Shown here piece by piece: positions 2,741-26,048 of a stretch of DNA of 28,004 nt. The DNA is from a virus, in IMG/VR virus record IMGVR_UViG_3300025102_000209, positions 1 through 28,004 of that record; one strand, given 5' to 3'. Under the pieces are notes generated by a model. That model was not told the origin of the DNA. It saw nothing but the letters and a program-made list of their open reading frames with translations, and made no database searches. Position numbers and translations under genes: made by a program. Numbering within the stretch: position 1 is the first letter of the stretch; every line of letters begins with the position of its first letter.

Positions 2741-5700
2741 ATGGCAGAGCTTAAGCATACTTTCCTTAAGGGGAAGATGGATAAAGATAGCGATGAAAGA
2801 TTAGTTGAAAATGGAGCATATAGAGATGCTCTTAATATACATGTGTCTTCTTCAGAAGGTGCTAATGCTGGTGCAATAGAAAATTTATTAGGTAATGAAC
2901 AACTTTCTTCATTACAATTAAAAAATGCAAAAGTATTAGGTTCTGTAGTTTATACTTTAAAAGATAAATTGTATTGGATTGTAACTTCAGATAATATAGA
3001 TGGCATATATGAATATGACCAAATACAAAAAGAAATATCACCTATATTAATTGACACAAAAAGTGCTGGTACAAAAACTTTTTTCTCTACAATTATAGAT
3101 TCTAATTCTGATAACGAATTAATTTTAGATAATATATCTAATACAGATATAAGTACAATATTTGGTAACGTTCCAAATAGCAATAATGATGAAACGCTTG
3201 TTTCAAATAATATTGATCTTTATTGTGAAAATCCATATATAAAAATATCTATACCAAAAGATACGGTAATAAGAAAAGAAAATGATTTACTTGTATTTAA
3301 GAATATACATTATTCTGGACAAGCATATGGAGGTGTTGACTTAAATGTAGATTTTTCACTAAAAAGTGTATTAAATTTTTCAAAAAGTAATATTATAACA
3401 GGTATTAATATTATAGATGATATGCTTTTTTGGACAGATAATTTAAATGGTCCGAGAAAAATAAATATTTCAAGATTTAAAAAATATACAGAGTCACAAA
3501 AATCAAATAACGTAAATATATTTGAAACACAAACAAAAGTATTGTTTGATGATAAAGATGTGCATGGTAATATATTTACTAATACAAGAAATTTTACAGA
3601 AGATGATATTAGTTTAGCTAAAAAAGTGCCAATGAGTGCACCTACATTATCATTATCTAATACATTAACTAATTCAGGTATTACTACAATACCATTTTTA
3701 ACTAATTTTCAAAATAATAATATAAACGTTGATGTTGGTGATGATTTATTTATACCTGTTAAAACATTACCCATTTGGAAAGTAGGAGATACTATAACAA
3801 TAACAGCAGAAAATCCAACTGTTGAAACCATTGAACTTACAGCTACTGTAAAATTAATTTCTTTTATTGGCATAACATTAACATTAACAACAAAAGATGC
3901 TGATATAGACTATAGCTTAAATTATGAAGCCACATTTACTTTATTAGAAAAGAAGCCAATTCATGAATTATCTTTTGTTAGATTTGGTTATAGATGGAAA
4001 TATAATGATAATGAATATTCATCTATTTCACCTTTTTCTGAAGTTGCTTTTATACCCGGTGACACATTTAAGTACAATGCTAAAGAAGGTATCAATACAT
4101 CAATGGAAAACCAGCTTAGAATAGTTAAACTATCTGATTTTGATACTGGAGATGATAATGTTTCAGAAATAGAAATACTATATAAAGAAAGCGCTAATCA
4201 AAATATATATACTTTAAAATCAATAAAAAGAATAGATTTTGAAGATACTTATGAAATAACTAAAGAACAAATACATTCAGTATTACCAAATGATCAGTTA
4301 CTTAGATCATGGGATAATGTGCCTAAAAAAGCAAAATCACAAGAAGTAACTTCAAATAGAATAATATTTGGTAACTATAAGCAAAACTATGATATTTATA
4401 ACCCAGCAGAATTTGATGTATTTATTTCTCAAAGATTTGGAAAGCAAAGTATAAAATCAAATAGAAATTACCAAATAGGTGTTTCTTATATTGATGAATA
4501 TAATAGACATTCACCTATACTTTCAAATGATACAGGTTCATTTTTTATAGACAAAACACAAGCTACAGTATCTAATGAATTTAATATTGCATTAAAATCA
4601 AAACCGCCAGCATGGGCAAAATATTTTAAGTATTATATAAAAGATATTTCTTCTGAATATTACAATTTAGCCGCTGATAGATTTTATGTAGATAAAGAAA
4701 ACGGATTTGTTTATATTTCTTTTTCTTCAAATGAAAGAAACAAAGTATCAAAAGATGATTCTATTTTATTAAAGAAAAAACACGGAACAGATGAAGCTGT
4801 TTCAACAGATAATAATAGATTTAAAGTTATTGAAGTTTTTAATGAAGCACCAGCTTTTATTACACAAAGAAAAAAAGCTATTGAAATTTTAAGTGATATT
4901 AAGTTTTCTGACAATATTTCTGGATCAAATGTTACTCCTATATTAAATATAAATAATGCACCAGCTAGTTCATTACCTAAAAAAAGAAGTAGATCTGTAA
5001 AGATAATGCAAGCCTTTAAAGGCGTTGATTATGATAGTCTTGTTTTAAACACCACCGCTAACGCCAATGAAGGGGTACCTCAAAAATATTTAGCTAATTT
5101 ACAAAATGGAAAATTTGTTAGATTTATTTCTGGTGATAAAAAAACAGATTATTACAAAATATCATCTGTAAGCATAGACTATGCAGATTCTGGTAGTAGT
5201 GGTGATAATGATATTCAAGTACAATTAACTTTTGATAGAGATTTTAATGATGATGTTAATGTTCTTTATGATGCGGCTGGTAATATAGGAGACTCAAACG
5301 GTTTAGGTGTAAATTTAGAAATAGCAGAAGAGTTTTCAGCAGCAGGTGATAAAGAATTTGATGGTAGATTTTTTATTAAAGTAGCTGCTAATGAAGAGTT
5401 ATTATATATAAATAATTCATCAAATACAGATTATTACGATTTAGAGTCTTTTGATTTAGCAGGTGTGGACAGGCATTCTGATAAAAAGAAAAATAAAAGA
5501 GTTTTACCTAAAAATGATGTAGATGATAATCCAAAGTTTCCACTGTTTATAAGTAATAATAATCCAGGAGGTGATTTTGCTTTTGGTATTGTTATGTTAA
5601 ACCATAAACAGGCAAGTTTAGATGCATTTGAAAAATTTGATATAGGTACAAAATTTTATATTAATGAAGACTCAGATAATATATATGAAATACAATCTAC

Positions 5701-8700
5701 ATCAACGCCAGAAAAAACTACATTTGGTGGTTATGAAAGTCAACGCAGAAGAAGACTATATTCAATACTTAAGAAAAATTTAAAAATAGTAAGAGTTGAT
5801 ACTGAAGATATAGTAAAAACACAAGATTTACCACCACTACCAGCGCTTGGTTCATTATCAACAATAAAGCTTACTATTGTTGAAGAAAACTTTGATAATA
5901 ATAAAATACCTTTTTCTAAAAATCCTGCAATATTTGAAACAGAGCCAAAGCCAAATAAAACTGATTTAGATATTTATTACGAAACTGAAAAAGCATTTGA
6001 TATATCTGAGCACGGTAATTCTTTAAAAATAAAATGGTTTAACTGTTTTAATTTTAGTAATGGAGTTGAGTCTAATAGAATAAGAGACGACTTTAATTCA
6101 CCATTTATTCAACCAGGAGTAAAAGCATCAGCGCCAATAACAGATCAAATAAAAGAAGAACATAAGTTTAATGGTATAATATGGTCAGGTATAATAAATT
6201 CAAGAAGTGGATTAAATAAATCTAATGAATTTAATGTAGCTTACCCTATAACAAAAGATTTATTACCGTCATATGGCTCTATACAAAAATTGCATGCATG
6301 GGATGATAGATTAATCATGCTCTGTGAAGATAAAATTGTACGAGCATACGCAGATAAAGATGTTATTTATAACGCTGATGGCAATATGAATATTGTTGCT
6401 ACTAATAAAGTTATAGGTGATGCTCAGCCTTATGCAGGTGAATATGGTATATCTACAAACCCAGAATCATTTGCAGCTTATGGTTTTAGATGTTATTTTA
6501 CAGATAAAATGAGAGGTGCTGTAATAAGATTATCATTAGATGGTATGGAGGTTATTAGTAATTATTTTATGAGTGACTTCTTTAATGATAGATTTTTTGG
6601 TAGTGAATGTTATAATTCAGTACAAGACAATTCATATTTATTAGGTTCATATGATAGCAATAATGGTTTATATAATATTTCTTTCTTAGGAAGAGATACT
6701 GTATGTTTTGATGAGCAAATAAATGGATGGGTAACTAGAAAATCATTTATACCTCAAAATGCTATATCATTAAATAACATTTATTATACATATAATAATG
6801 GAGATATTTGGCAAAATGATTCATCTAATGTACCTCATAATAATTTTTATAATGTACAGTACACTTCTAAGGTACAATTAGAAATTAATGATGATCCATC
6901 TGTTATAAAAAAATATAGAACTTTAGGTTACGAAGGAACAAAAGGTTGGCAAGCTAATATAGTTACAGATCAAGAAAAATCAAGTAACTTATATTTTGTA
7001 GAAAAAGAAAATAAATATTTTGCGTATGTAAAAGGTGAAGAAAAGAACTATACTAATTTAGATTTAAAAAGTTTTAACTTACAAGGATTAGGAAATATAA
7101 CTGCTTTTGCTGGTCTTTCCGCAGCGGTTAATACCGAATTAAAATTTCAAATATCACCTAATGATACTTTTAAATACATATCTAATCCTGTTATTTTAAC
7201 AAATACGCCTGGAACTAAATTATCACCAACTGTATCTATAAAAATAGCACCAAAAAATGGGTATATATTAGATGCAAATAAATTAAATATACCTAAAGCT
7301 GTTGTAACTAAATCTGGCAAAGATTTAATCGTAGAGTATACACATGGTATAAAATCACACCCTACTGAAGATAAAACGGTTGAAATAGAATTATGTAAAA
7401 TAAATTTTGCTGAAAAAGAAAATGTATCAATAACAGGTAATTATAGTTTTAGTAAAACAGGTAAAGTAAGTTCTAGTATTCCTGATGATTCTTATAATAT
7501 AAGCGGAAATACAAAAACACTACAAATTACAGCAAAAAGAACATTAATTCCTGATCCAGGTAACGAAATATTATTTGATAGTATAAAAACAGATAATCCT
7601 AATGTACAATTAACTAAAAAGCAAAATGATGATGGAAGTGTAACAGTTACTGAAAGAATACAAATAGGCACTTCTAATATAACAAATTTTGATTATGAAA
7701 TTTCTGCAATAGCAATTGCGGCTACTGTAGCTACTAAAGAATTAGTATTATCATCTATCAATAAAGATGATTTAATTAATCAAGATTATAATAGAATTTT
7801 AAGTATTTATGGTGACCCAGGAAGTGCATTTTCATATGAATTAGAAAATAACGGGGGACCTATAGACAATATAAATAACATTGTAATACCAGATACAGGT
7901 ATTCATCAAATACCAATAAACTTTGATTCATCAAATATTACTGATTTATTCACTATAACATTAACACCTGGGCAAGACACAGTAAATGGTGCTAATTTTG
8001 AAAATATTATACAAATACCTAAAACTCAGAAAAGTACTCATGAGATTACTATGTTTTCTCAATTTAATAATACTATGAGTAATAAAAGTGTGTTTAAAGC
8101 AACGAGTAATGATGCTATTAACTACGACTTTTCTTTTGTTTTAAATTTACCTTCTGCTAATTATGTTTTAAAATCACAAGTAAAACAAAAAGATTTTATT
8201 TTTGATAATACAACAGACAATACAGAACTTACTGATTTAAATTTAGTATTAGATAATTCCGCAAACACTGTAACATTATCTGGTAATATAAATATAGACA
8301 AAGTTACAAGTAATAATAAAATTATATTATTTTTAACTGACTTTGTAAATGAACAAATAACATTACAATTAGGATATAGTAATGTTACCGCAGCAGGAGT
8401 TACTACAACAAATTATACATTTGCACCTTCTTCAACTTATTCAATAATAGGCCCATCAGGTTTAGCTCCCCAGACTATTGAAAATGAATATTTATTTACA
8501 CTAACACCAAGTGGTGGATTTGAATTTATAAACAATATAAGTTCTAATGATTTTGAAATAATAGATAGTGGTAATAATAATGTTACAGCTACATATGCTT
8601 TAAATAATACTGTTGATATTTCAGTAATAAATAGTGAGTTGGTTGTAAAAATGATTCCTAATAGCTTTAATATGCCGCCGGCTAATGAAACTATAAACAT

Positions 8701-11239
8701 AGTACCAAAAGATCAAATAACGCAATCTATACAACCTCCATTAAGTGATTATAGCTTAGTGTATGATCCTCTTGATAACGAAGATAGATTATTTACAGAT
8801 AAATTAATATTAGGCAAACTAACCGACTCTTCTAACCAACAATTTTTGTTTCAAAAAACATTTGTTATTGATAGAACATTAACACAAAACTCTGATTATA
8901 CGAAAATTTTTAGTACGTTAGGTCATGTAATAAACTTATTAGATAATGAATTAAGTTTAGCCACTGCAGGAACATATACAGATATAAATGGAAATTCTGT
9001 AGCAGTAACGGATCACATAGAGCTAAATACAAATAAAACAGAATTAACATTAAATATATTAGCTAATATAAATGCAGTTCCTGATAAAGCTATAGGTACT
9101 GTTGAATTTGATTTTGCTACTGAAGAAAGTTATCATATAATAGAACTACAAGAAGGAAACTGTGATACTCATAAAGGCAAGCAAATAGTTAAATATAGAT
9201 TATTTAATGCGGATCCTTTAGATTCATCAATTACAAAAGGTTCTTATATAGCTAATATTAATGATTCAGGAATTGGTGCTACTGATGGTAGTGCTATTCT
9301 TCAAAATAAATTTAAAATAGTAGGCGGTGATAAATTAGTAATATTAAATAAATCTACTATAAATGGTATTGATAAAGTAAAAGGATTTGAGCAATGTTCT
9401 AAAAGCATAAATACTATAATTGATGCAAATGATATAACTAGAGTATATGGCGATCCTGATTTTCAAGTTAGTGCAACTACACGTTCAGGTGCAAATTTAT
9501 CATTTGTAGTTAAATCAGTTCCTCTTCAAAATGTAATAACTTCTACTAGTTCAGGTAAGGTAACTATACAAAATGCTGGAACAGCAGAAATAATTATATC
9601 AGCACCTCAAGTAACCAAAGGTGTTATAACTTATTTACCTGCAACAAAAACAATAAAAGTTACAATACAAAAAGCAACAAGAACTATATCTTTTGATAAA
9701 GAAATATATACTACTAAGTTTGGCTCAATCATTGCAAAAGTTACACAGTCAGGACCAGTCAATACCCCCACATATGAAGTTATTGGTTCAGCAGGTGTTG
9801 TTGGCCCAATACTACCAGTAGATCCTAGTAATCCATTTGAAGTAAATGTATTTACTATAGGCGCTGTTGGTAGATCCACTGTTATTAAAGTTACAGCATT
9901 TCCAGGTATGAATTTTTTACCTGCTTTTGATACAGCTATAGTAAAAATAGAACAAAGAGATCCTTCAACTATTGATAGTGACGGTGATGGAGTTGCTGAC
10001 GCTGATGATGATTTCCCGCATTCTACTGAAGCACAATTTATAACACAATTTTCTTCATTTTCTTCAATTGATTCAGACGATCCAAATAATATTATAACAA
10101 AAATTCCTTTTTATGGCCAACCAGCAACAGAAAGTATTGAACAATACTCAGATGGAGGAAGTGGATATTTAGATATTACAGGAACTGGACCATCTAATTT
10201 AGCAGCATTTCAATATAAATGGGAAGCTGTAGTTGATAATAATTCTAGTTGGATTGATTTAAGAAGAACATCAGGACAAGTAGGTTTAAACAGAGCAACT
10301 TTTACAACACAAGAAAATAATACAGGTTTTGAAAGAGTTGGTAGAATAATAACAACTATTTTTTATAGAGGAATAGAAGTTAATAAAATAACTAATGAGA
10401 TAATACAAGCTGCAACCCCAAAACCACAACCTACCGTAACACCAGGAACTACACCCGCACAAAATACAAATCCTAATACACCTCAACCACCTAACCCTAA
10501 TGCTTTGCCTATTAATTCATTAACGCCATTTCAAATGAGCACACGGGGTCATGCGATCTACAAACCAATCCCCTCATTAGCTGAAATAGCTGCCCAATCT
10601 TTTCCAATTGATAAAACATATTATCATAATGGAACTAATATATTACCAGACGTCGGAGATTCTATTAGATTAGAAAATGATATTAATGGAACCAATCCAA
10701 GTCATGATAGATGGTATAGGCTTACCAATAATTCTATTGTGCGTCTTAAATTTGAAGGAGGCAGAGGACGCAGAGGCACTTATATTAGTGAAATAAAAAC
10801 ATTTACGCTGCCACAAGCAAGTTCAATAGGTAATTTAGTTTGTGATAATGATCCTGCCGCTACTACAGCTAATTCTATAAGAATTTCAGGAAGCATAACT
10901 GGATCAGTAACAAATCCTTCACTATTTTATCAGAATCATGATATTTCAAAAGGAACTGTTATAGACTATCAAATAACAAATTTATTCCTTGCTCCTACAG
11001 GTGCTAAAATAAGAGCAATGGTACATTTCTTAATAAGAGTTGATGATACTCAATATGATAATCACGGGCAAGCAATAGTATGTTCTGCAATAGTACAAAC
11101 TGTATTCCCTAAACGTGCTGGTAATGACGAAACTTTGTTAGAAAAGAATTTTGGAAATAAATTTGGTAATAGATTTTACGATATTAGCAATCCGGGTGCA
11201 CCTTTACCTAATCCAGGGAATTATAGTCCTCTAACTTAA
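2741..11239 (+). CDS. Giant tail hub/'muzzle'-like protein with adhesin-like C-terminal half (2832 aa)
   Basis: The N-terminal half looks like a phage tail-tube or stabilisation protein of podovirus and crAss-like type. Visible landmarks are KMDKDSDERLVENGAYRDAL with SSSEGANAGAIEN (first 55 residues), LLRSWDNVPKKAKSQEV (about 520) then RIIFGNY (about 540), GEYGISTNPESFAAYGF (from 1233) followed by YFTDKMRGAVIRLSLDG, and YRTLGYEGTKGW (about 1390). From about 1460 to 2560 the sequence changes to Thr/Asn/Ser-rich beta segments resembling bacterial Ig-like or MBG-type modules; one begins near VYGDPDFQVSATTRSG (about 2235). A single thrombospondin type 3-like calcium loop, DSDGDGVADADDDFP, lies near 2412. 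A Pro/Thr/Asn-rich linker (about 2557-2594) joins a C-terminal head that includes YYHNG and PDVGDSIRL. There is no signal peptide, as expected for a virion protein. I infer that it forms the tail tip and protrudes to contact the host surface. Confidence 0.65.
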   Translation: MAELKHTFLKGKMDKDSDERLVENGAYRDALNIHVSSSEGANAGAIENLLGNEQLSSLQLKNAKVLGSVVYTLKDKLYWIVTSDNIDGIYEYDQIQKEISPILIDTKSAGTKTFFSTIIDSNSDNELILDNISNTDISTIFGNVPNSNNDETLVSNNIDLYCENPYIKISIPKDTVIRKENDLLVFKNIHYSGQAYGGVDLNVDFSLKSVLNFSKSNIITGINIIDDMLFWTDNLNGPRKINISRFKKYTESQKSNNVNIFETQTKVLFDDKDVHGNIFTNTRNFTEDDISLAKKVPMSAPTLSLSNTLTNSGITTIPFLTNFQNNNINVDVGDDLFIPVKTLPIWKVGDTITITAENPTVETIELTATVKLISFIGITLTLTTKDADIDYSLNYEATFTLLEKKPIHELSFVRFGYRWKYNDNEYSSISPFSEVAFIPGDTFKYNAKEGINTSMENQLRIVKLSDFDTGDDNVSEIEILYKESANQNIYTLKSIKRIDFEDTYEITKEQIHSVLPNDQLLRSWDNVPKKAKSQEVTSNRIIFGNYKQNYDIYNPAEFDVFISQRFGKQSIKSNRNYQIGVSYIDEYNRHSPILSNDTGSFFIDKTQATVSNEFNIALKSKPPAWAKYFKYYIKDISSEYYNLAADRFYVDKENGFVYISFSSNERNKVSKDDSILLKKKHGTDEAVSTDNNRFKVIEVFNEAPAFITQRKKAIEILSDIKFSDNISGSNVTPILNINNAPASSLPKKRSRSVKIMQAFKGVDYDSLVLNTTANANEGVPQKYLANLQNGKFVRFISGDKKTDYYKISSVSIDYADSGSSGDNDIQVQLTFDRDFNDDVNVLYDAAGNIGDSNGLGVNLEIAEEFSAAGDKEFDGRFFIKVAANEELLYINNSSNTDYYDLESFDLAGVDRHSDKKKNKRVLPKNDVDDNPKFPLFISNNNPGGDFAFGIVMLNHKQASLDAFEKFDIGTKFYINEDSDNIYEIQSTSTPEKTTFGGYESQRRRRLYSILKKNLKIVRVDTEDIVKTQDLPPLPALGSLSTIKLTIVEENFDNNKIPFSKNPAIFETEPKPNKTDLDIYYETEKAFDISEHGNSLKIKWFNCFNFSNGVESNRIRDDFNSPFIQPGVKASAPITDQIKEEHKFNGIIWSGIINSRSGLNKSNEFNVAYPITKDLLPSYGSIQKLHAWDDRLIMLCEDKIVRAYADKDVIYNADGNMNIVATNKVIGDAQPYAGEYGISTNPESFAAYGFRCYFTDKMRGAVIRLSLDGMEVISNYFMSDFFNDRFFGSECYNSVQDNSYLLGSYDSNNGLYNISFLGRDTVCFDEQINGWVTRKSFIPQNAISLNNIYYTYNNGDIWQNDSSNVPHNNFYNVQYTSKVQLEINDDPSVIKKYRTLGYEGTKGWQANIVTDQEKSSNLYFVEKENKYFAYVKGEEKNYTNLDLKSFNLQGLGNITAFAGLSAAVNTELKFQISPNDTFKYISNPVILTNTPGTKLSPTVSIKIAPKNGYILDANKLNIPKAVVTKSGKDLIVEYTHGIKSHPTEDKTVEIELCKINFAEKENVSITGNYSFSKTGKVSSSIPDDSYNISGNTKTLQITAKRTLIPDPGNEILFDSIKTDNPNVQLTKKQNDDGSVTVTERIQIGTSNITNFDYEISAIAIAATVATKELVLSSINKDDLINQDYNRILSIYGDPGSAFSYELENNGGPIDNINNIVIPDTGIHQIPINFDSSNITDLFTITLTPGQDTVNGANFENIIQIPKTQKSTHEITMFSQFNNTMSNKSVFKATSNDAINYDFSFVLNLPSANYVLKSQVKQKDFIFDNTTDNTELTDLNLVLDNSANTVTLSGNINIDKVTSNNKIILFLTDFVNEQITLQLGYSNVTAAGVTTTNYTFAPSSTYSIIGPSGLAPQTIENEYLFTLTPSGGFEFINNISSNDFEIIDSGNNNVTATYALNNTVDISVINSELVVKMIPNSFNMPPANETINIVPKDQITQSIQPPLSDYSLVYDPLDNEDRLFTDKLILGKLTDSSNQQFLFQKTFVIDRTLTQNSDYTKIFSTLGHVINLLDNELSLATAGTYTDINGNSVAVTDHIELNTNKTELTLNILANINAVPDKAIGTVEFDFATEESYHIIELQEGNCDTHKGKQIVKYRLFNADPLDSSITKGSYIANINDSGIGATDGSAILQNKFKIVGGDKLVILNKSTINGIDKVKGFEQCSKSINTIIDANDITRVYGDPDFQVSATTRSGANLSFVVKSVPLQNVITSTSSGKVTIQNAGTAEIIISAPQVTKGVITYLPATKTIKVTIQKATRTISFDKEIYTTKFGSIIAKVTQSGPVNTPTYEVIGSAGVVGPILPVDPSNPFEVNVFTIGAVGRSTVIKVTAFPGMNFLPAFDTAIVKIEQRDPSTIDSDGDGVADADDDFPHSTEAQFITQFSSFSSIDSDDPNNIITKIPFYGQPATESIEQYSDGGSGYLDITGTGPSNLAAFQYKWEAVVDNNSSWIDLRRTSGQVGLNRATFTTQENNTGFERVGRIITTIFYRGIEVNKITNEIIQAATPKPQPTVTPGTTPAQNTNPNTPQPPNPNALPINSLTPFQMSTRGHAIYKPIPSLAEIAAQSFPIDKTYYHNGTNILPDVGDSIRLENDINGTNPSHDRWYRLTNNSIVRLKFEGGRGRRGTYISEIKTFTLPQASSIGNLVCDNDPAATTANSIRISGSITGSVTNPSLFYQNHDISKGTVIDYQITNLFLAPTGAKIRAMVHFLIRVDDTQYDNHGQAIVCSAIVQTVFPKRAGNDETLLEKNFGNKFGNRFYDISNPGAPLPNPGNYSPLT

Positions 11240-11251
11240 AAATAAAATAAG

Positions 11252-11575
11252 ATGGCAATTACAACATTAACATTTCAGCATGCATTGAACCAATCGTTAC
11301 AAACGGGTGATACTATATATTTTCAAAAAAATGACAATGTATTGGAATTTGGGCAGTGTTTAAGTATAGATGATTCTAGAACAGTAATAGGTGTTGAAGT
11401 TCCTGATACTAACGTACGTCCTGAAGCAAATAGTTTCTTTATGTTTGCTAAAAATAATGTAATAAATACTAGTGGATTGCTTGGTTATCATGCAACTGTA
11501 ACATTAGAAAACGATTCAACAGATTTTACAGAGCTATTTGCTGTAAATTCAGAAGTAAATATAAGTAGTAATTAA
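11252..11575 (+). CDS. Small conserved virion protein, 107 aa
   Basis: A short beta-rich acidic protein beginning MAITTLTFQHALNQSLQTGD, with a hydrophobic core section (SFFMFAKNNVINTSGLLGYH) and ending SELFAVNSEV-like as TELFAVNSEVNISSN. I recognise very similar small proteins (MAITTLTF start, TGD/VGD turn, SxLLGYxA...NDST...ELFAV) placed after large tail genes in marine phage genomes, where they are annotated only as structural or hypothetical. Its likely job is a small structural or minor tail component, by association. It is preceded by the A/T leader AAATAAAATAAG and followed 12 bases later by the next gene, so it belongs to the ejection-protein operon. Confidence 0.6.
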   Translation: MAITTLTFQHALNQSLQTGDTIYFQKNDNVLEFGQCLSIDDSRTVIGVEVPDTNVRPEANSFFMFAKNNVINTSGLLGYHATVTLENDSTDFTELFAVNSEVNISSN

Positions 11576-11587
11576 AAATAAAATATT
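11576..11587 (+). promoter_or_regulatory. Bacteroidota-type A/T translation leader
   Basis: The whole spacer before the 236-aa gene is AAATAAAATATT. It has no Shine-Dalgarno sequence and abuts the ATG directly. Nearly the same leader precedes the next gene (12299-12309), and close variants precede the starts at 11252, 13665 and 22282. This fits the known A-rich, SD-independent initiation of Bacteroidota. Confidence 0.55.
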
Positions 11588-12298
11588 ATGGGATTTGATA
11601 ATACAACAGGCAATATAGAACTTGCAGGAGACATTACCAAAACTGAAACACCAAAAACATTTGCAGAAAAATTAGGACAAGCAGCAAAAACTGATGTTGG
11701 CGGTTTTGGACAAGTAGCTGAAGGATTAGCTGGAATAGCAGGTGGTCTTATAGGCGGTAGAGCTAGAAGACAAGAACAAAGAGCAGCTAGAACTGATTTA
11801 GCCACGCAAAGACAAGCTTATGAATCTTTTCAATTTCAAGATCCATCAAGAAATTTAACTAATACTTTTGAAGATTTAACAGTAAATAGACAAGCAGCTG
11901 AATTTGCTGCCCAACAACAACAACAAGGCTTAGCTGGTGCATTAGGTAAATTACAAGGTGCAGCAGGTAGTTCTGGTATTGCTGCTTTAGCGCAAAGCTT
12001 AGCACAACAACAATCTAGAAATTTGCAGGCCGCTTCAGCTAGTATAGGTCAACAAGAGGCTGCTAATCAAATGGCGAGAGCACAAGGACAACAAAGTTTA
12101 GAAAGAGCAAGAGCCGCAGGTGCACAATATGTGCAAGAAAAAGAATTTGCTAGAACAGAAGATATGTATGAAACAGCTGCTCAAAGAAAATTAGCAGCAG
12201 ACGAAGCGAGAAAACAAGCTACTGAAGGTTTAGTTGGTGGAATAGCTAACTTAGCTGTTGGGGCTGGAAGGGTCGCTGTTGGAGGCGGCATATTTTAA
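11588..12298 (+). CDS. Putative internal virion/ejection protein, Gln/Ala/Gly-rich (236 aa), T7 gp14-like by position
   Basis: The protein has a glycine-rich hydrophobic stretch at about residues 38-58 (VAEGLAGIAGGLIGG), then a long Gln/Ala/Arg-rich helical body with a QQQQQ run and many coiled-coil-like segments. It ends with a second glycine-rich hydrophobic segment (GLVGGIANLAVGAGRVAVGG) at the very C-terminus. A small Ala/Gln-rich protein with membrane-active ends, placed just before two larger helical proteins, mirrors the position and composition of T7-type gp14, which leaves the virion and inserts in the outer membrane. No sequence identity with gp14 is claimed; the assignment is by composition and order. 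The start ATG follows the leader AAATAAAATATT. Confidence 0.5.
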   Translation: MGFDNTTGNIELAGDITKTETPKTFAEKLGQAAKTDVGGFGQVAEGLAGIAGGLIGGRARRQEQRAARTDLATQRQAYESFQFQDPSRNLTNTFEDLTVNRQAAEFAAQQQQQGLAGALGKLQGAAGSSGIAALAQSLAQQQSRNLQAASASIGQQEAANQMARAQGQQSLERARAAGAQYVQEKEFARTEDMYETAAQRKLAADEARKQATEGLVGGIANLAVGAGRVAVGGGIF

Positions 12299-12309
12299 AA
12301 TAAAATATT
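12299..12309 (+). promoter_or_regulatory. Second copy of the A/T translation leader
   Basis: The spacer AATAAAATATT between the 236-aa and 447-aa genes is the same as the last 11 bases of the leader at 11576-11587. Again there is no purine-rich ribosome-binding sequence, and the ATG follows directly. Confidence 0.5.
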
Positions 12310-13653
12310 ATGGCATTAGATACAAAATTAATTGGACAAGCGCTTGGAACTGGAAAAGGCAGAGTTATTAACACTAGTAATGTTACACGTGCTGTTATGC
12401 GTGGTGAAGCTGCTCTAGCTAGAAACAGAGCTTTACAATTAAAAAGAGAGCAAGATTTTCAAAAAGCATTAAAAGATAGACAAGATTTTAATGTTAAATT
12501 ATTAGCTCAATTCAAATTACCTAGTTTCAAAGGCGCACCACCTCAAGCTATGAATTGGCTTAATAAGCAAGCTAGTGCGTTGAAGGTTCAGTCATATGAA
12601 ATTGCAAATGATCCTAACTTAAGCAAAATGCAGAAGCAAATCGCAATGAATGAACTTCAAGGTGAAGTTGACAAATTAACTTTTTGGAAAGAAGAATATA
12701 AAGAAAGCATGGTTGATTTTATAGACAAAACAGATATGCTAAGCTCGGTTAACTCTCAGAAAGATTTAGAGCTAGATAAAGCTAGAATAGCAGGAGATTT
12801 TGTATTTGAAGGGAAAGATGCAATATTTAATATTAATGGCAAAGAAATAAGAAAGCCTATAAGTGAATTATCAAAAGGATTTGGATTAGTTGAACAAGAA
12901 CATATAGCTTTTAATGATTTATTAAAGACAACTCAAAAAGCAGCTAAAAAAATAGCTTCAGAAGGAAAAGACCGGTCTGCTATAGCCTATGAAATTGATT
13001 CAGGATTTGAGGAATTACAATTAACTGATATGCAATATTTAACGTTAGCTGTTGATAAATTTAAATACGGCAGTGAAAAAGATCATGTAGATATAGACGT
13101 ATTAAAAGAAGAATTAAAAGATGAAAATCCTGATAAAATTGATAATCCTGATATTAAAATAAAATTACAAGAATTTATAAAAGATAAATTAACTAAAGGA
13201 GCTGAAGAAGCTTACAAGGCTTATTTTGAACCAAAAGACCCTAAGGGTGATGGAACTGAAAATGTTGAAAATTTAAAATCATTAGCAGAAGATTATACAA
13301 AAGAATTAAATGATGCAATGAGTAATTACGATTTTTCAATGCTTCACAATACTAAAATTGGTGGTAAATTAATAACAGGTAGTGAAATTAGAAATGGTAA
13401 ATTATATTTAGAATATACAGCTAGAACTACTTCTGAAGGCCAACAAACAGCAGAACTTTCTGGAATTGATTTAAATAATAAAGTTAGATTAAAAGCTTTA
13501 TTATCTGAATATATTAAAGGTCAAAAAGGGATGGATATGAGTAATAAAATTACAAATAATATTACTGATGAATCATTATTTATAATAGATGATATAAATA
13601 AACAAAACTCTATTTTATTTCCACCACCAACAACAAAGTCAAATTTACCTTAA
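12310..13653 (+). CDS. Putative internal virion protein (447 aa), middle gene of the ejection cassette
   Basis: A largely helical, charged, soluble protein with no signal peptide or clear membrane segment. The first 60 residues are basic (VTRAVMRGEAALARNRALQL). Next come a helical region with many Gln/Lys/Glu residues, a small beta insertion near residues 165-185 (FVFEGKDAIFNINGKEIRKP), further helices with Lys/Glu-Asp alternation, and a beta section near the C-terminus (LYLEYTARTTSEGQQTAELS). I recognise no enzyme motif. Its place between a small membrane-active protein and a 2500-residue multidomain protein matches T7 gp15, the periplasmic tunnel component of the ejectosome. This role is inferred from synteny only; it could equally be another internal cargo protein. 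Confidence 0.5.
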   Translation: MALDTKLIGQALGTGKGRVINTSNVTRAVMRGEAALARNRALQLKREQDFQKALKDRQDFNVKLLAQFKLPSFKGAPPQAMNWLNKQASALKVQSYEIANDPNLSKMQKQIAMNELQGEVDKLTFWKEEYKESMVDFIDKTDMLSSVNSQKDLELDKARIAGDFVFEGKDAIFNINGKEIRKPISELSKGFGLVEQEHIAFNDLLKTTQKAAKKIASEGKDRSAIAYEIDSGFEELQLTDMQYLTLAVDKFKYGSEKDHVDIDVLKEELKDENPDKIDNPDIKIKLQEFIKDKLTKGAEEAYKAYFEPKDPKGDGTENVENLKSLAEDYTKELNDAMSNYDFSMLHNTKIGGKLITGSEIRNGKLYLEYTARTTSEGQQTAELSGIDLNNKVRLKALLSEYIKGQKGMDMSNKITNNITDESLFIIDDINKQNSILFPPPTTKSNLP

Positions 13654-13664
13654 ATTAAATAAAT

Positions 13665-16600
13665 ATGGAAGACATTTTTGAATTTGAAAATCAAGAATAT
13701 ACTTTGCTTGAAGTAGAAGAAGCAGCCAAAAAAAAATCATTAAGTATTGATGATTATATAAAAAAATACAATATTTCTCGTAAGCCGGGAAAGACAAATC
13801 TCACATCACCGGGTGCGGATGTGAAGGATATTGCAGCACCCGAGTTAACCGTTACGGACTCTCCTTCGGTAAATATTTCTTTGGATTTATCCGAAACACC
13901 TAAAACAGGTACACAAGCTGGTACTGAATTTATACCCGAAGCTATATCAAAAGAAAGAGAAAACGAAATACTTTTAGAATATGATGAAATATCTAATATA
14001 GATATAGAGCAAGAAGCTATAAATAAAAAACAATCTAAATTAAAGCGTTTTCAACAGGGTGAATTTAAACTTGAAGAAAAAGAAGAATTTAATTATTGGA
14101 AAAATTCTAATGGTAAATTATTTGAAGAATCTGAAACTTTATCTGAAAAAGAAATTGAAGATAGAAAGCAAGCTAATCAAACTGTTTTTTTAAGTAAAAT
14201 ACCAGCTTATGAAAGACAACAAATATTTGCAAAGAATAAAAAAGTCCTTGAAGAGCAAACTAATTTTGTAAATAAGTCTATTGAAAAAAGAGATAACCTT
14301 ATTTCACAATATAATGATATTGCAAATACAGATATAAAAAGTTCTGAAGATTTTATTTATAGAAAAAATTTAATAAACCAAATAAAATTTGAAGATATTG
14401 AAAGAAGAAGAGCTTTATCTAATTTAAATAGAACAGAAGATTTAGTTGACGATTTTAAAAGAAGTTATTCTTTTTACGATACAGCAGAGCAATCTTTTAA
14501 AACAATTGGTACTGATTTAGCTATAGGTGTAATGAGTACCATAGATATGTTAAAAACAGAAGAAGGCCAAAAAATTTCTTATTCAAATGATTTAATTGAT
14601 TTTAGAGAAGGTTTGCAGCAATTTGCAGAAGAAAATTTAGCAAAACCTATAAGCATTGAAAATGTAAATAGCTTAGATAAAGCATTTGTTTGGGGCACTC
14701 AAGCTTTAGCAAATCAGCTACCTACATTAGCAATGGCTTTTACAGGCCAAGCGGCTATTCCATTATTTTTTGCAACAGGATATGGTTCAAAAATGTCGGA
14801 TTTTGAATTAGGTGAAAGAAAAGCAAAAAAAGAATTACCATTATTAGATGCTGCTTTAAAATTAGAAAAAGACCCTGAAAGAAGAAAAGAAATACAAAAA
14901 AATATTGATTATTATTCTCGTTATTTAAATGTAAGTGATGCGATTAAGGTAATAACATCTGCTGCTCACGGTGGAGCTGAAGCTATATTTGAAGGTTTAA
15001 CAACATTAAAATTAGTTCGTGATCTTCAAAATATTGGTACCAACATATTAAAAGCAGGTGGTAGCCGTAAGGCTGTTTACAATGCTTTTAGAGCCGCTCC
15101 TATGTCTATAGGATTAGAAAGCTTAGGAGAAACTGCTACGCAAATATCGCAAAACGCTGCTGATATATTAATATTTAAAGATGATAAAAGTCTTTTAGAA
15201 AATGTATCAGAAGCCGCAGCTCAAGGAGCTTTATTTGGTTCTGGTTTTGCTGTTCCAAATTTAGGTGCTGCTATAAACGCTGGTATTCAGTCTACAATAT
15301 CTACTAAAAATGATAATGCTAAAATCAAAAAAACATTAAAAGAAATTAATGATTTAACTTTTGAGTTAGAATCAAATAATAAATTAACTTCTGAAAATAA
15401 AAAAGAACTTCAAAAGAACATACAACAAAAAATTAGTGAACTTGTTACTACAACAGATATAACAAGAGCCAGGTTTCAGCGTTTATCATATGAGCAACAA
15501 CAAGAAGTATTTGATTTAGAAAGACAAGTAAATAATTCTATAAAAAGATGGACCAATATAGGTGCTTCAAACATGAGTGAAAGCACTAAGAACTCTTTAC
15601 GAGAAGAAATAAAAAATGAAATACAAGCTTTACAAGATAAAAAACAAGCTTTATTAGAAAGTGGTGATTCTAGACTAAAAGAATTAACAACTATATCTAC
15701 AAAAAATCTTTTATCAGACGGAGATATTTTACAAAAAAATCAACAATATTCTAGATGGAAACAAGGTGTACAAACATTTATTAAAAAATACAATTTACCT
15801 ATTGAAGTTTCTGTTGAAGAAATGTCTAAAGAAGAAATTCAAAAATATTTAGAAAGCGACGATGCGCCCCCTGGTGGAAAATATGCAAATGGCAAAATAA
15901 CTTTATACGAAAATGTTGCTAGTCAAATAAATCCATCAACTCCTGTACATGAATTAACTCATGCTATTTTAGAACAATTTGGTCTTACAAAAAAAGACTT
16001 TGATAAATTAGAAAATTCTTTTAAAAGTTTTTTAGAGCTTAAAAAAGCAAATGGAGAAATAACTGATAAGCAATACAAAGATACTATAGAAAAGTATGAA
16101 AAATATCAAAACGATCCTTCTCAAAAAAAGTTTGCTTCAGAAGAACTTTGGACAAGTTTTATCGATGCTATTTCTGAAAAAGTTTTAGATAAAAAAGATG
16201 TTTCATTTTTATTAAAAATTGGACAATCTTTAAAAAATATAATATCTTCTAAATCATCTAAAATAGAAGCTGAAAATTTTAAACTTAATACTCCAGAAGA
16301 TGTATATGATTTTTTAACTCAATTTGCAGAAAGTGTAGCGCAGAAAAAAGATTTTAAAAGAATAGTTGGAGTAGAAATACCAGAAAAAATTAAAGAAGAC
16401 GTTGAAAAATTTTCAAAGTCAATGGCTTCAGAAAAAGTGCAAGAAATATACGAAGCACAAGGGGCTGCTAATGCTATGGATATTATTGATGAGTTTAAAC
16501 CTATAACTAATAAAATAGTAAACAGATACAGAGACGTACCTGGTTTTGAATTTGAATTATTAAGAGATGAAATAGAAACAGGTAAAAGAGGTATACTTGA

Positions 16601-19600
16601 CATGATAATGGATTACACCCCTGAAAAAGCAAAGGGTGCTCCATTAGCTGCTTATATAAATAGCTTATTACCAAAAAGAGCTATTGAAGCGGCAAACCGT
16701 ATATTAGATACAGAATTTAAATTAGATGTAACGGAGGCTAAAGGAGTTACTGATACAGTAACAGCAGAAGAAACAATTGAAAGAGAAGAAGCTGCTCCTG
16801 CAGATGAAATAAAAAGTTTACGTAAACAAATTGGGTTATCAGAAGAGCTTGTCACTAAAGTTAAAGATGCTGTAGTAAAAACTTTTGGTACAAAATTACC
16901 CAACCCTCAAGATCCTAAGTTTAGATTTGAATTGCAAAAAAGATTCAGAACAGAGTTAAAGAAACCTTTATCTAAGTTTGTAGGTAAGCAAGCTGATTAC
17001 GAAGCTTTCTTAAGAGATAATTTTGAATCTGTGTATAGCAAAATGCCTCAGTCATTAATAAATAGAAGGTTTAAAGAATTTGCTGAACCTGTTCTTGATA
17101 AGAATGGAAAGCAGGTTAGAGAGAAAACAGCAGAAGGCAATAAGGTATATGTTAAAAAGAAAATATCTAAAGCTGAATGGATTAAATATTTTATAGGCGC
17201 TGATGTTAAAAGTTCAACTAAAGGGGCTAGAAAAACAGCTATAGTTGAAGGCATGGCAGAAGAAATTGCTTTTGATGCTACTATGGAAGTTTTAGATAAC
17301 CCTGATGTTATTTCAAAATACCAAGACATAGCCGGTATTACAGGTGAGGTATTACCTGAAAACTTTAAATCATTAATAGCTAAGCAAGTTGATAGAGCGG
17401 AAGACTTTAAATTTTCTAAAAGTTTAATTAATGATGCTAAGACAGAATACAATTTAGAATCTCAAGAATTAGCAAAAATACTTGATAAAACAAGTTTAGA
17501 TAAATTAAGCAATAAATATTCATTAATATCTGATAATATAATTTATGAGGCTGACCCTGCTAATATTAAATTTAGTCTCACAACTAAGGCTGATGGTAAA
17601 TGGGAACAAAACCAATTAAACCCATTAGAGGAAAGTGCAAAGATATATAAATTTAAAGTAGGTGAAATAGATTATGAAATAAATGCATTTAAAGATCCTT
17701 CAGGTTACAACTACGATATATTTGAGCAGACTGAAGGTATTGAGGATGGGGCTATCAATAATGATCCAAAATCATGGGAATTGGCTTTTGCATCTGCAAC
17801 TACAAAAAGGGTGGGTTTAACAGAATACGCGTTAAAAGGTCGTACTAATCAGTTTAAAGTATTTGGAACTGTAGCTAATGCAACTATAGATTTAATTAAA
17901 AAAGAAAAATTAAATTCTATAACATTTACCGCAAAGGAAGAAAGTAGAAAAAGATTATATAATTCTTTAAATAAAAAGTTTGCAAATGAATTAGGATGGG
18001 AAACATATGACTATCCAGCTGACATACCAGATGGTTCAGAAACAATATTTATAGCTTATGATCCAAAAGCTTTTAATACTGAACCGCAAATTACAACACC
18101 ACCACAAATTAAATTTAGTTTAAATACAAATAATGAATTTAATGTTACTGCAAAAGAGTTATTGTATAATTCAAAAGCTTGGGCAGAATATTCAAATAAT
18201 ATTCTTAATCGCAGTCAATTTTATCAAAATTATATTGGGAGTATTGAAGCAAGCTTAGGTTCCGTTAGACCTTCTAATGTAATAGATTATGCTGGTATTG
18301 TAGGTTATAAAAAATTAACAGATAAAGAGCAAAAAATTTTTAAAGAAAAAATAAAACAATTACAGCAAAAAATAATAGCTCAAAAAACAGCAAATACTGA
18401 TAACATGCTTCAAGATGGGCCTGCATATAAAAGTCCTCCTTATGCTTTTGGCAAAACAGTAAGTGAATTTAAAAAGAAATTAAAAAACGGAGAAATATTT
18501 AAACACACAAAACAATATCAAAGAATATATAGAGATATGTGGAGCAAATATTTTGATATGCTTGCTGCAGATAATACAATGTATAACTTCCTTGAATTAA
18601 CGTTAAATAATTCCAATACAGATACTAGCCACTGGCATAGACAAGGAGCTTTATTTATTGGGTTTGATCAAGGGGCATTACCTACGCCTTTATTAGATAA
18701 AAACGGAAAACAAATATTTAGGTTTACTAAGGAAGGAAAAAAATATCCTTTAACAAGAGTTGTTGAATTTGAGCACGCAGTTCAAAATCACATACAATGG
18801 AGGAGAGTGCTAAAAGCCACAGCAAAATTTGCTAAAAAAAATGATAAAAAAGGGTTTATTAAATACCTTGAAAAATCTATGGAAGACTATGTTTTAATCG
18901 GTATGGCTTACGCAGATGCTAGAAAAGTTGATAAGGCTGGATATGCTCATATAATGCCAGAAGGATGGAAACGTTGGTGGGATAGATATTTCAATAATAA
19001 AGTAGCAAAAATAGATGGCGGAATAAATGCAAATAATATATCTTTTATAGAATATACTAATACAAAAGCTAATATTAAAGGTAATATTGCAAGAGAATTT
19101 AATATTAGTAATTCAAATGGTAATATTAAACTTTCTAAATCATTAAGTAAGGAATTTAATAATTTATTACAACAAACTACAGGCGTACCATTTTATGAAA
19201 AGTTTTCGCCTGTTAAAGCTACAATGATGGGTAGAGGTAAAGGTAAAAAATTCTTTATACCTTATTCAGCAGATGACTTTGTAGGTTTATTATATGCAAC
19301 ATTAGGCACTAAAAAGCAAGGCGGTAATGAACAAATGAAATGGTATGAGGAAAATTTACTTAGACCATTTTCTCGCGGCATACAACAATATGAAACCGCA
19401 AAGCAAGTTGCATTACGTAACTGGCAAGCTCTTAAAAAAGAAGCTAAAAAAGATGTACCTGGCGGTTTAAATAAAGTTAATGAAACCGGATTTACAAATC
19501 AAAATTCATTAAGAATTTATATGTGGCGTAAACAGGGTATAAAAGATAAAGATATACCTGGAATAAGTTCACAAGAATTAAGAGACAATAGTAGAATAGT

Positions 19601-21167
19601 AAGAAATGACCCTAAGTTAAAAGCTTTTGCTGAAAGATTAATGGCTTTAAATCCTGAAGGTTATCCACCACCATCTACAGAATGGATAGCTGGTGATATT
19701 ACTACTGACTTAGTTTCTTATATAAATGATGTAAAGAGAGCTGAGTATTTAACTCAATGGAAAGAAAACGTTGATCAGATATTTAACGATCAAAATAAAA
19801 ATAAATTAAAAGCATTATACGGTGATTCATATATTAAAGCATTAGAAAACATGCTTTATAGAATGGAAAAAGGTAGAAACAAATTTAAAGATGCAAGTGA
19901 TATTGAAAGAAGGTTTCAATCATGGGTTAATAACTCTGTTGGATCAATAATGTTCTTTAATGCTAGATCTGCTGTATTACAAACATTATCTGCTGTTAAC
20001 TTTATAAACTTTAGTGATAATAATCCAATTGCTGCGGGTATAGCATTAGCTAATTTTCCACAGTATGTAAAAGATTTTTCAACATTATTTAATTCAGACT
20101 TTTTAAAACAAAGACGTTCTGGTTTACAAACTGATGTAAATGCTGATGAAATTGCAAAAGCAGCGGCTACATCTAAAAACCAAGCACAAGCAATGCTTGC
20201 TGCAATACTTAAGTTTGGATTTACACCAACACAAATTGCTGACTCATTTGCTATTGCTTCAGGTGGTGCTACATTTTATAGAAACAGAATAAACAAATAC
20301 AAAAAAGAAGGATTAAGTCAAAAAGAAGCAGAACAAAAAGCATTTACAGACTTTCAAGAAATAGCAGAAGAAACACAACAGTCTGCTAGACCTGATAGAA
20401 TATCTATGCAACAAGCAGGTTCATTAGGTAGACTTGTATTAGCATTTGGTAACACCCCAATGCAATATGCAAGGCTTACAAAAAAGGCTACGTTAGATTT
20501 AATTAATGGAAGAGGAGATTGGAAGACAAATATAAGTAAGATTGCGTATTATAGTGTAATACAGAATATTATATTCTCTGCTTTACAACAAGGGTTATTT
20601 GCGCTTCTATTTGATGATGAAGAAGAAGATGATAAGAAAGCAAGATATTATAGAATAGGTAATAGTAGTGCTGATACATTATTAAGAGGCATGGGGGTTT
20701 ATGGCGCTGCTGCAGCAACAGTTAAGAATATGATTATCAAGATAGTAGAAGAAACTAAAAAATCCAGGCCTGATTATACTAAAGTTGCAATAGAAGCAAC
20801 AGCAATATCACCACCTATAAATTCTAAATTAAGAAAACTTGTTTCAGCTGGTAAGACATTTACATATAAGCAATCAAGAGAAAAAGTATTTACAGAAGGA
20901 TTTAGTTTAGACAATCCAGCTCTTTTAGCCGTTGGAAAAGTAATTTCTGCTGGTACCAATTTACCCGCTGATCGTATAGTTTTAAAAATGGATCATATAT
21001 ATACAGCAATGCAACCTGAAACAGAACTTTGGCAAGGTACTGCATTAACGCTTGGATGGGGTGAATGGGAATTAGGTATGATAGAAAAGCAAACCAAAAA
21101 AGAAAGTAATTTAAAAATAAAACCTTTTAAGAAAAAATCTTTAAAGATTAAAAAATTTAAGAATTAA
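13665..21167 (+). CDS. Giant polyvalent internal virion/ejection protein with zincin domain (2500 aa)
   Basis: The N-terminus, FEFENQEYTLLEVEEAAKKK then LSIDDYIKKYNI, resembles a short N-terminal module I know from other giant phage virion proteins. Hydrophobic stretches at about 345-375 (ALANQLPTLAMAF) and 505-535, with GLESLGETATQISQN between (about 483), suggest a membrane-interacting section. A zincin motif HELTHA lies at 762-767, with SEELW (825-829) as a candidate third zinc ligand, so a metallopeptidase is likely. The segment at about 1302-1483 contains VFGTVANATIDLIKKEKL and a following beta strand, and resembles an acyltransferase-like domain seen in such proteins (tentative). The C-terminal third (about 1822-2500) is helical, has a hydrophobic segment at about 2293-2317 followed by DDEEEDD, and ends in a Lys-rich tail. 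Linkers with K-F/L-S recur between sections. By position it is the T7 gp16 counterpart, probably ejected into the cell. I find no RNA polymerase motif. Confidence 0.6.
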   Translation: MEDIFEFENQEYTLLEVEEAAKKKSLSIDDYIKKYNISRKPGKTNLTSPGADVKDIAAPELTVTDSPSVNISLDLSETPKTGTQAGTEFIPEAISKERENEILLEYDEISNIDIEQEAINKKQSKLKRFQQGEFKLEEKEEFNYWKNSNGKLFEESETLSEKEIEDRKQANQTVFLSKIPAYERQQIFAKNKKVLEEQTNFVNKSIEKRDNLISQYNDIANTDIKSSEDFIYRKNLINQIKFEDIERRRALSNLNRTEDLVDDFKRSYSFYDTAEQSFKTIGTDLAIGVMSTIDMLKTEEGQKISYSNDLIDFREGLQQFAEENLAKPISIENVNSLDKAFVWGTQALANQLPTLAMAFTGQAAIPLFFATGYGSKMSDFELGERKAKKELPLLDAALKLEKDPERRKEIQKNIDYYSRYLNVSDAIKVITSAAHGGAEAIFEGLTTLKLVRDLQNIGTNILKAGGSRKAVYNAFRAAPMSIGLESLGETATQISQNAADILIFKDDKSLLENVSEAAAQGALFGSGFAVPNLGAAINAGIQSTISTKNDNAKIKKTLKEINDLTFELESNNKLTSENKKELQKNIQQKISELVTTTDITRARFQRLSYEQQQEVFDLERQVNNSIKRWTNIGASNMSESTKNSLREEIKNEIQALQDKKQALLESGDSRLKELTTISTKNLLSDGDILQKNQQYSRWKQGVQTFIKKYNLPIEVSVEEMSKEEIQKYLESDDAPPGGKYANGKITLYENVASQINPSTPVHELTHAILEQFGLTKKDFDKLENSFKSFLELKKANGEITDKQYKDTIEKYEKYQNDPSQKKFASEELWTSFIDAISEKVLDKKDVSFLLKIGQSLKNIISSKSSKIEAENFKLNTPEDVYDFLTQFAESVAQKKDFKRIVGVEIPEKIKEDVEKFSKSMASEKVQEIYEAQGAANAMDIIDEFKPITNKIVNRYRDVPGFEFELLRDEIETGKRGILDMIMDYTPEKAKGAPLAAYINSLLPKRAIEAANRILDTEFKLDVTEAKGVTDTVTAEETIEREEAAPADEIKSLRKQIGLSEELVTKVKDAVVKTFGTKLPNPQDPKFRFELQKRFRTELKKPLSKFVGKQADYEAFLRDNFESVYSKMPQSLINRRFKEFAEPVLDKNGKQVREKTAEGNKVYVKKKISKAEWIKYFIGADVKSSTKGARKTAIVEGMAEEIAFDATMEVLDNPDVISKYQDIAGITGEVLPENFKSLIAKQVDRAEDFKFSKSLINDAKTEYNLESQELAKILDKTSLDKLSNKYSLISDNIIYEADPANIKFSLTTKADGKWEQNQLNPLEESAKIYKFKVGEIDYEINAFKDPSGYNYDIFEQTEGIEDGAINNDPKSWELAFASATTKRVGLTEYALKGRTNQFKVFGTVANATIDLIKKEKLNSITFTAKEESRKRLYNSLNKKFANELGWETYDYPADIPDGSETIFIAYDPKAFNTEPQITTPPQIKFSLNTNNEFNVTAKELLYNSKAWAEYSNNILNRSQFYQNYIGSIEASLGSVRPSNVIDYAGIVGYKKLTDKEQKIFKEKIKQLQQKIIAQKTANTDNMLQDGPAYKSPPYAFGKTVSEFKKKLKNGEIFKHTKQYQRIYRDMWSKYFDMLAADNTMYNFLELTLNNSNTDTSHWHRQGALFIGFDQGALPTPLLDKNGKQIFRFTKEGKKYPLTRVVEFEHAVQNHIQWRRVLKATAKFAKKNDKKGFIKYLEKSMEDYVLIGMAYADARKVDKAGYAHIMPEGWKRWWDRYFNNKVAKIDGGINANNISFIEYTNTKANIKGNIAREFNISNSNGNIKLSKSLSKEFNNLLQQTTGVPFYEKFSPVKATMMGRGKGKKFFIPYSADDFVGLLYATLGTKKQGGNEQMKWYEENLLRPFSRGIQQYETAKQVALRNWQALKKEAKKDVPGGLNKVNETGFTNQNSLRIYMWRKQGIKDKDIPGISSQELRDNSRIVRNDPKLKAFAERLMALNPEGYPPPSTEWIAGDITTDLVSYINDVKRAEYLTQWKENVDQIFNDQNKNKLKALYGDSYIKALENMLYRMEKGRNKFKDASDIERRFQSWVNNSVGSIMFFNARSAVLQTLSAVNFINFSDNNPIAAGIALANFPQYVKDFSTLFNSDFLKQRRSGLQTDVNADEIAKAAATSKNQAQAMLAAILKFGFTPTQIADSFAIASGGATFYRNRINKYKKEGLSQKEAEQKAFTDFQEIAEETQQSARPDRISMQQAGSLGRLVLAFGNTPMQYARLTKKATLDLINGRGDWKTNISKIAYYSVIQNIIFSALQQGLFALLFDDEEEDDKKARYYRIGNSSADTLLRGMGVYGAAAATVKNMIIKIVEETKKSRPDYTKVAIEATAISPPINSKLRKLVSAGKTFTYKQSREKVFTEGFSLDNPALLAVGKVISAGTNLPADRIVLKMDHIYTAMQPETELWQGTALTLGWGEWELGMIEKQTKKESNLKIKPFKKKSLKIKKFKN

Positions 21168-26022: not shown

Positions 26023-26048
26023 AAGGGGCTTTGCGGCCCCTTTTTTTT
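26023..26048. terminator. Bidirectional terminator between convergent modules
   Basis: The perfect stem AAGGGGC / GCCCCTT, with a possible T-G closing pair around loop TTGC, is followed by eight T in the plus direction. On the minus strand the same stem is preceded by eight A and followed by TTAATTATTT, and the stop codon of the RNR gene (26047-26049) touches it. It therefore ends plus-strand structural transcription and probably also the minus-strand RNR transcript. Confidence 0.85.

Follow-up and report, generated by a model that had tools for sequence, protein, structure and literature searches.

The muzzle protein gp44 of PhicrAss001 forms a hexamer at the end of the tail and gates it (PMC10172136). 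The length differences published for crassvirus muzzles are described as insertions within the crass and IG2 domains and not as a C-terminal array (PMC10172136). The ten Crassvirales muzzles that we compared are 1338–1595 aa long, versus 2832 aa for the protein described here; gp44 itself has 1371 aa and no C-terminal adhesin. The closest cultured relatives of the muzzle part of this protein are Callevirus phi38:1 gp097 and the Elemovirus muzzles, whose records lie outside Crassvirales (Pervagoviridae; Elemovirus without an order). They have the same neighbouring genes, but their terminal domain is fused and the adhesin cassette is absent. In the central fibres of lambda gpJ-type siphophages, the tail-hub protein carries Ig/FN3-type domains to a receptor-binding end, although gpJ has an unrelated hub fold and tail type and is without a split-off terminal domain. 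A tail-associated protein of tandem BACON repeats in crAssphage has been proposed for host binding (PMC6949934). It resembles the arm described below in that a crAss-like tail bears Ig-like modules of glycan type (PMC6949934), but it is a separate tail protein, whereas the arm has one BACON-like domain and is fused to the muzzle. The tail fibre proteins of Zeta crAss-like phages, which have Ig-like arms and lectin heads and were compared to intimin/invasin, share the Ig-like spacer and the variable head with this arm, but are probably trimeric, DGR-diversified and outside the muzzle (PMC12386605). A limited literature search found no description of a gate–adhesin fusion with fission of the last domain of the gate.

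We analyzed a virus contig of 28,004 nucleotides (the window), which contains the structural gene block of a marine crAss-like phage. Its ORF 2741–11239, on the plus strand like all features of the protein and its terminal domain given below, is a single open frame of 2832 aa, consisting of a crassvirus-type muzzle (residues 1–~1460) and ~1,370 added residues. The independent contig L001 has a counterpart of 79.7% identity with unchanged architecture, and the independent contig L002, perhaps the same virus, has one of 99.9% identity. We consider it quite probable that this is a gene fusion joining a crassvirus-type tail muzzle to an adhesin that sister phages encode as the next gene, and that the resulting arm binds the host.

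Residues 1–1460 (2741–7120) were assigned to the muzzle core from PHROG 14478 (E 1.7e-124), a gp44 profile match and gene order. The crAss_MUZ_C domain was found at residues 1366–1431 (6836–7033; PF25729, 30.5 bits with a cut-off of 27) and in all 13 members of alignment A3; the Y-R-T-L-G-Y-E-G-T motif (residues 1392–1400) falls within it. In hhalign, a profile of 17 relatives (A5) matched gp44 with a probability of 90.8 and an E value of 1.2e-6 over 212 columns, and this match extends beyond MUZ_C to cover window residues 1165–1400. The C-terminal part of the fused muzzles of the cultured relatives matched the ten Crassvirales muzzles with a probability of 98.2 and an E value of 3.1e-14. The gene order of the window matches phi38:1 gp094–gp101, the neighbours being putative ring and cargo genes by position and unnamed PHROGs. 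The window muzzle shares with gp44 a homologous propeller/MUZ_C part, and it likewise follows a putative ring-type protein. The sequence search of solved structures gave no match with the muzzle core or the Ig-like array as query, and no structural match was obtained for the muzzle part because its MUZ_C part is unfolded in the model that holds it. On these profile comparisons, residues 1–~1460 are a crassvirus-type muzzle, which makes specific the tail-hub or muzzle identity that the sequence-only reading had proposed for this part.

The added residues begin with a junction or linker (residues ~1432–1480; 7034–7180), delimited by the starts of hhalign alignments with stand-alone adhesin ORFs. 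A chain of Ig-like beta-sandwiches is predicted for residues 1463–2221 (7127–9403) from an AlphaFold2 model and stand-alone homologues. The model (mad6c5a5a215a) is all-beta with blocks mostly at pLDDT 70–90, and it is confident for residues 1463–1997 and 2130–2221 and poor for residues 1998–2129. Its fold matches are generic Ig-like ones (macroglobulin-type, Vibrio colonisation factor GbpA) with Z scores of 8–9 over 90–95 residues, GbpA being among the best at Z 8.9. A check for tandem sequence repeats in the array showed only weak similarity from module to module. A Pfam search of the array gave no credible match, and the extension matched none of 50,697 phage records.

The module after the array is a Big/MBG-like domain (residues 2222–2317; 9404–9691; pLDDT ~75) that contains a YGD motif; its model matched a staphylococcal SraP domain (Z 8.2, rmsd 2.3, 80 residues) and a Paenibacillus Big_2 domain (Z 7.8). 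The window protein itself stays below the MBG/Big gathering scores of Pfam, and MBG_2 reached E 0.039 in one relative. Residues 2411–2429 (9971–10027) form a DxDxDG segment, "IDSDGDGVADADDDFPHST", which resembles TSP3/Ca-binding sequences. Profile A4 matched an OmpA-family protein (5wtl) at the DxDxDG columns (E 6e-5), and TSP3_bac was found in one A4 member (E 7.9e-13). Relatives use a shared repertoire of modules; in L008, DxDxDG repeats replace the Big/MBG-like part. The next module (residues ~2436–2560; 10046–10420) scored 20.1 bits against PF13004, below the cut-off of 25, and its top fold match was the N-terminal domain (residues 42–131) of 3zmr, a B. ovatus GH5 xyloglucanase (rmsd 2.7, 88 residues; Z 8.9, a value at which common folds also score). 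Since the gathering score is missed and the similarity to 3zmr is one of fold, we label this domain BACON-like. A Pro/Thr-rich linker (residues ~2558–2592; 10412–10516) leads to the C-terminal head (residues ~2593–2832; 10517–11236). The model of these 240 residues is too poor to interpret, with pLDDT mostly below 50, and we found no head homologue of known function.

The sequence-only reading had described the extension as Thr/Ser/Asn-rich modules of Ig-like character with the architecture of a surface adhesin, followed by a Pro-rich linker and a head. The predicted Ig-like chain agrees with this description, as do the Bacteroidetes-adhesin-like modules at the end of the protein and the 24% Pro content of residues 2561–2605, after which the head comes. 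The richness in Thr also held (10.3% in residues 1461–2220 and 11.8% in residues 2221–2560, versus 5.8%), but Ser and Asn add little, Ser being nearly constant in the extension and Asn slightly raised in its first part.

When the ORF directly downstream, of 107 aa (11252–11575), was compared with the final ~100 aa of the fused muzzles found in cultured relatives, hhalign gave a probability of 98.7% (E 4.7e-16). MUZ_C and this terminal domain (TD) stand side by side in phrog_18548. Judged from these profiles, the 107-aa ORF, which the sequence-only reading had missed, is the displaced C-terminal domain of the muzzle, and the extension stands exactly at the point where the chain was cut. A gp44-type muzzle has its C-terminal domain on the same chain; here this domain sits in ORF 11252–11575, and we therefore term the 2832-aa protein a variant of the muzzle. 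The TD ORF is 87% identical to its L001 counterpart. The TD is a separate ORF in all 68 marine loci in which a cassette parts MUZ_C from TD, and it is on the muzzle chain in all seven loci without a cassette (L018, L025, L026, L027, L082, L114, and L115). Equating the 107-aa domain with the C-terminus of gp44 is not claimed, because a suggestive motif and position were accompanied by a probability of 0.3%. A second cutting point was seen in L117, L118, L119, L124, and L125, where MUZ_C and TD form their own ORF apart from the remaining muzzle; this ORF has 241–273 aa, or 641 aa in L125. PHROG 18548 (241 positions) appears to equal this MUZ_C+TD piece; its reading as a whole-muzzle fusion was dropped in favor of a separate piece of 241 aa in loci like L124.

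The cassette between MUZ_C and TD measures 548–1985 aa in the 68 marine loci, with a median of ~918. In about half of them, the muzzle stops soon after MUZ_C and at least one ORF follows before TD, often after a gap of 2–12 nt. A profile of the window-type extension matched only muzzle ORFs and ORFs between muzzle and TD. When it was rebuilt without its two most distant members (L017 and L022), it still matched such ORFs, down to 9.7e-22, and gave no match to reversed or shuffled ORFs. In profile–profile comparisons, the extension matched six groups of stand-alone ORFs (A–F) with E values from 3e-8 to 5e-17, with weaker or no support for groups G and H; the reversed controls reached at most 0.4% probability. 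The hhalign alignments start at ORF residues 12–30 and extension columns 43–56, and the start of the stand-alone ORF corresponds to window residue ~1482–1495. Stand-alone members contain Cadherin_3, Big_9, or fn3 above the Pfam cut-offs, which is in line with the surface-adhesin character proposed for the extension. By these comparisons, the window extension is homologous to the stand-alone adhesin ORF of sister lineages.

In a quick tree of the muzzle core, the clade of the window contains 14 loci (SH-aLRT 100) and is wholly of the extended type, with muzzle ORFs of 2296–3074 aa among its complete members. In its sister group (L039, L045, and L049; SH-aLRT 92), the muzzle stops 30 aa past MUZ_C and separate ORFs are present. 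The sequence-only reading had stated that proteins of this family end shortly after the Y-R-T-L-G-Y-E-G-T motif. This is true of the cultured relatives, in which the Callevirus phi38:1 (1324 aa) and Elemovirus elemoC (1493 aa) muzzles, with the same neighbours, end ~100 aa past MUZ_C, and of roughly half of the marine ones, of which 31 among 68 end less than 200 aa past MUZ_C, but not of the window's own clade, whose complete members all carry a long extension. An ordinary tail protein shared at full length by all close relatives had been named as the finding that would speak against an added adhesin. Such sharing is seen within the clade only; one step outside, the array is a stand-alone gene, which argues that the protein is a fusion and not simply a tail protein of great length.

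Across the tree, the long muzzle extension requires at least 11 changes, a count that serves as a guide only, since many inner branches are weak and the length limits were set by us. The window array and the fused arrays of the L059 and L086 groups matched with a probability of 67–77% at the junction only, so repeated fusion here means a count of muzzle architectures and not one proven family. On this comparison of loci, fusion with TD fission is one of the forms taken by a variable cassette that occurs widely among marine crAss-like phages. Separately, in L015 (16903–18077), L005 (16078–16223), and L033 (10729–11922), the extension is split within an MBG-like domain, with the head encoded by an ORF of its own (390–395 aa where complete). 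A programmed +1 frameshift joining the parts in L015 and L005 was rejected as a general rule; the L033 split is in another frame, and the different relative frames in L015 and L033 indicate a gene split, not a conserved frameshift. The tail part of a stand-alone adhesin (L055, 8163–11138, residues 639–797) is 31% identical (E 8e-10) to a C-terminal part of phi13:2 gp120. This is a structural protein of Cellulophaga podophages that belong to a different family, Pachyviridae, and the resemblance fits a role of the adhesin in binding.

L001, the nearest distinct relative, was the reference for identity and dN/dS. Identity to it is ~90% or more over most of residues 1–2200, with lower values in 701–1000 and 1401–1600. 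Past residue ~2200 it falls to 70, 48, 31, 53, 33, and 53% per 100 residues, and the head has 33–62% identity where the hub has ~90%. The dN/dS values are 0.07–0.16 in the muzzle except residues 701–1000 (0.35), 0.175 in the Ig-like array, and 0.52–0.64 in the variable, module-swapping C-terminal part (residues 2221–2832; 9401–11236). The purifying selection on the array bears on whether the long frame is an assembly chimera or an accidental read-through of two genes. That two genes stand here in sister lineages would suit such an origin, but the full-length frame occurs in several independent contigs, and with the selected array this makes an artifact practically negligible. We infer that the divergence of the last ~600 residues is the pattern expected of a receptor-binding end. 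The divergent block continues past the adhesin through the putative cargo genes to ~16.4 kb, and synonymous divergence (dS) rises in it too. Part of the pattern is therefore explained by exchange with a distant allele, with no need for positive selection. Within window positions 9600–16400, the block includes the adhesin end and putative cargo ORFs of 236 aa and 447 aa and the start of a 2500-aa ORF, which suggests that the adhesin end and cargo are exchanged together; L001 contains no match to the 447-aa ORF.

Two other functions for the extension were weighed. The array could be a general sticky decoration for weak binding of glycans or particles and for surface search, with specific binding left to separate downstream fibres. 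Virions commonly display Ig-like domains as weak binders, the BACON-like domain points to glycans, and two fibre-like ORFs lie within the same window. However, a conserved Ig-like array leading to a fast-changing, module-swapping end fits specificity better, and we regard this alternative as unlikely. The extension might also be cargo or a processed protein that is cleaved off the muzzle and then ejected or released. In favor of this, it sits between the muzzle and genes in cargo position, the divergent block joins both, and gp45, which adjoins the PhicrAss001 muzzle, is cargo (PMC10172136). The Ig-, BACON-, and cadherin-like modules are instead extracellular binding folds, and the models are without cargo-like helical content, which leaves this possibility very slight.

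In the preferred reading, a host-binding arm fused to the muzzle, the 107-aa TD protein would rejoin the muzzle as a subunit. Because the TD is made separately, the muzzle C-terminus would be free to carry an arm of ~10–13 Ig-like domains. If the muzzle is a hexamer like gp44, the tail end would carry up to six arms, which by our own estimate (~4 nm per Ig domain) would be very roughly 40–50 nm long when stretched and would extend to the surface of the host. There the variable last ~600 residues would attach to a glycan or protein exposed by a Flavobacteriia-type host, and the tail would stay anchored to the cell until opening of the muzzle. The crass/IG2 part of gp44 spans residues 318–1021 (PMC10172136), which places the C-terminal segment on the propeller side and not at the distal crass domain. 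By this analogy, the arms may emerge from the muzzle close to the barrel. In T7-type nozzles the C-terminus is on the ring side; if this is so in the muzzle, the base of the arms would be beside the barrel instead of at the tip.

The architecture suggests that host recognition and tail opening are joined in one chain, which bears on host recognition and the muzzle-opening trigger in crAss-like phages. A bolder version, tentative and rather doubtful, is that tail gate and receptor sensor are one polypeptide, that up to six arms attach to the cell and their pull on the muzzle opens it, and that this split-and-fuse arrangement arose several times in marine crAss-like phages. If true, the price of the gate–sensor fusion is that the muzzle TD is made separately and then reassembled. 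The fusion, together with its adjacent-gene version in sister phages, provides "Rosetta stone" evidence for docking of the stand-alone protein on the muzzle. Two unannotated gene sets in many marine phage contigs, the adhesin cassette and the split TD, thereby gain a likely role, and the fusion indicates where host specificity is likely encoded. The cultured relatives and prophage-like loci come from Cellulophaga, Flavobacterium, Maribacter, Tenacibaculum, and Aquimarina, which supports a host of Flavobacteriia type. L114 and L115, muzzle-type loci free of the extension, are located on large contigs from the genomes of Aquimarina algiphila and Tenacibaculum sp. and are possible prophages of crAss-like phages.

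The neighbouring genes downstream of the muzzle cassette are probably cargo. ORF 13665–21167 (2500 aa), which has the position of crassvirus cargo, contains a HELTHAILEQFG stretch of the zinc-protease-like HExxH type and a weak match to DUF6934. ORFs 22607–24613 and 24644–25753 are fibre-like by eye with weak family matches; the latter has a "DLGSATKKFRDLYLSSDSIFIG" stretch of a type seen at phage fibre N-termini, and its PHROG matches are weak. The ORF at 26047–27810 on the minus strand encodes a ribonucleotide reductase large subunit (PHROG 84, E 1.1e-146).
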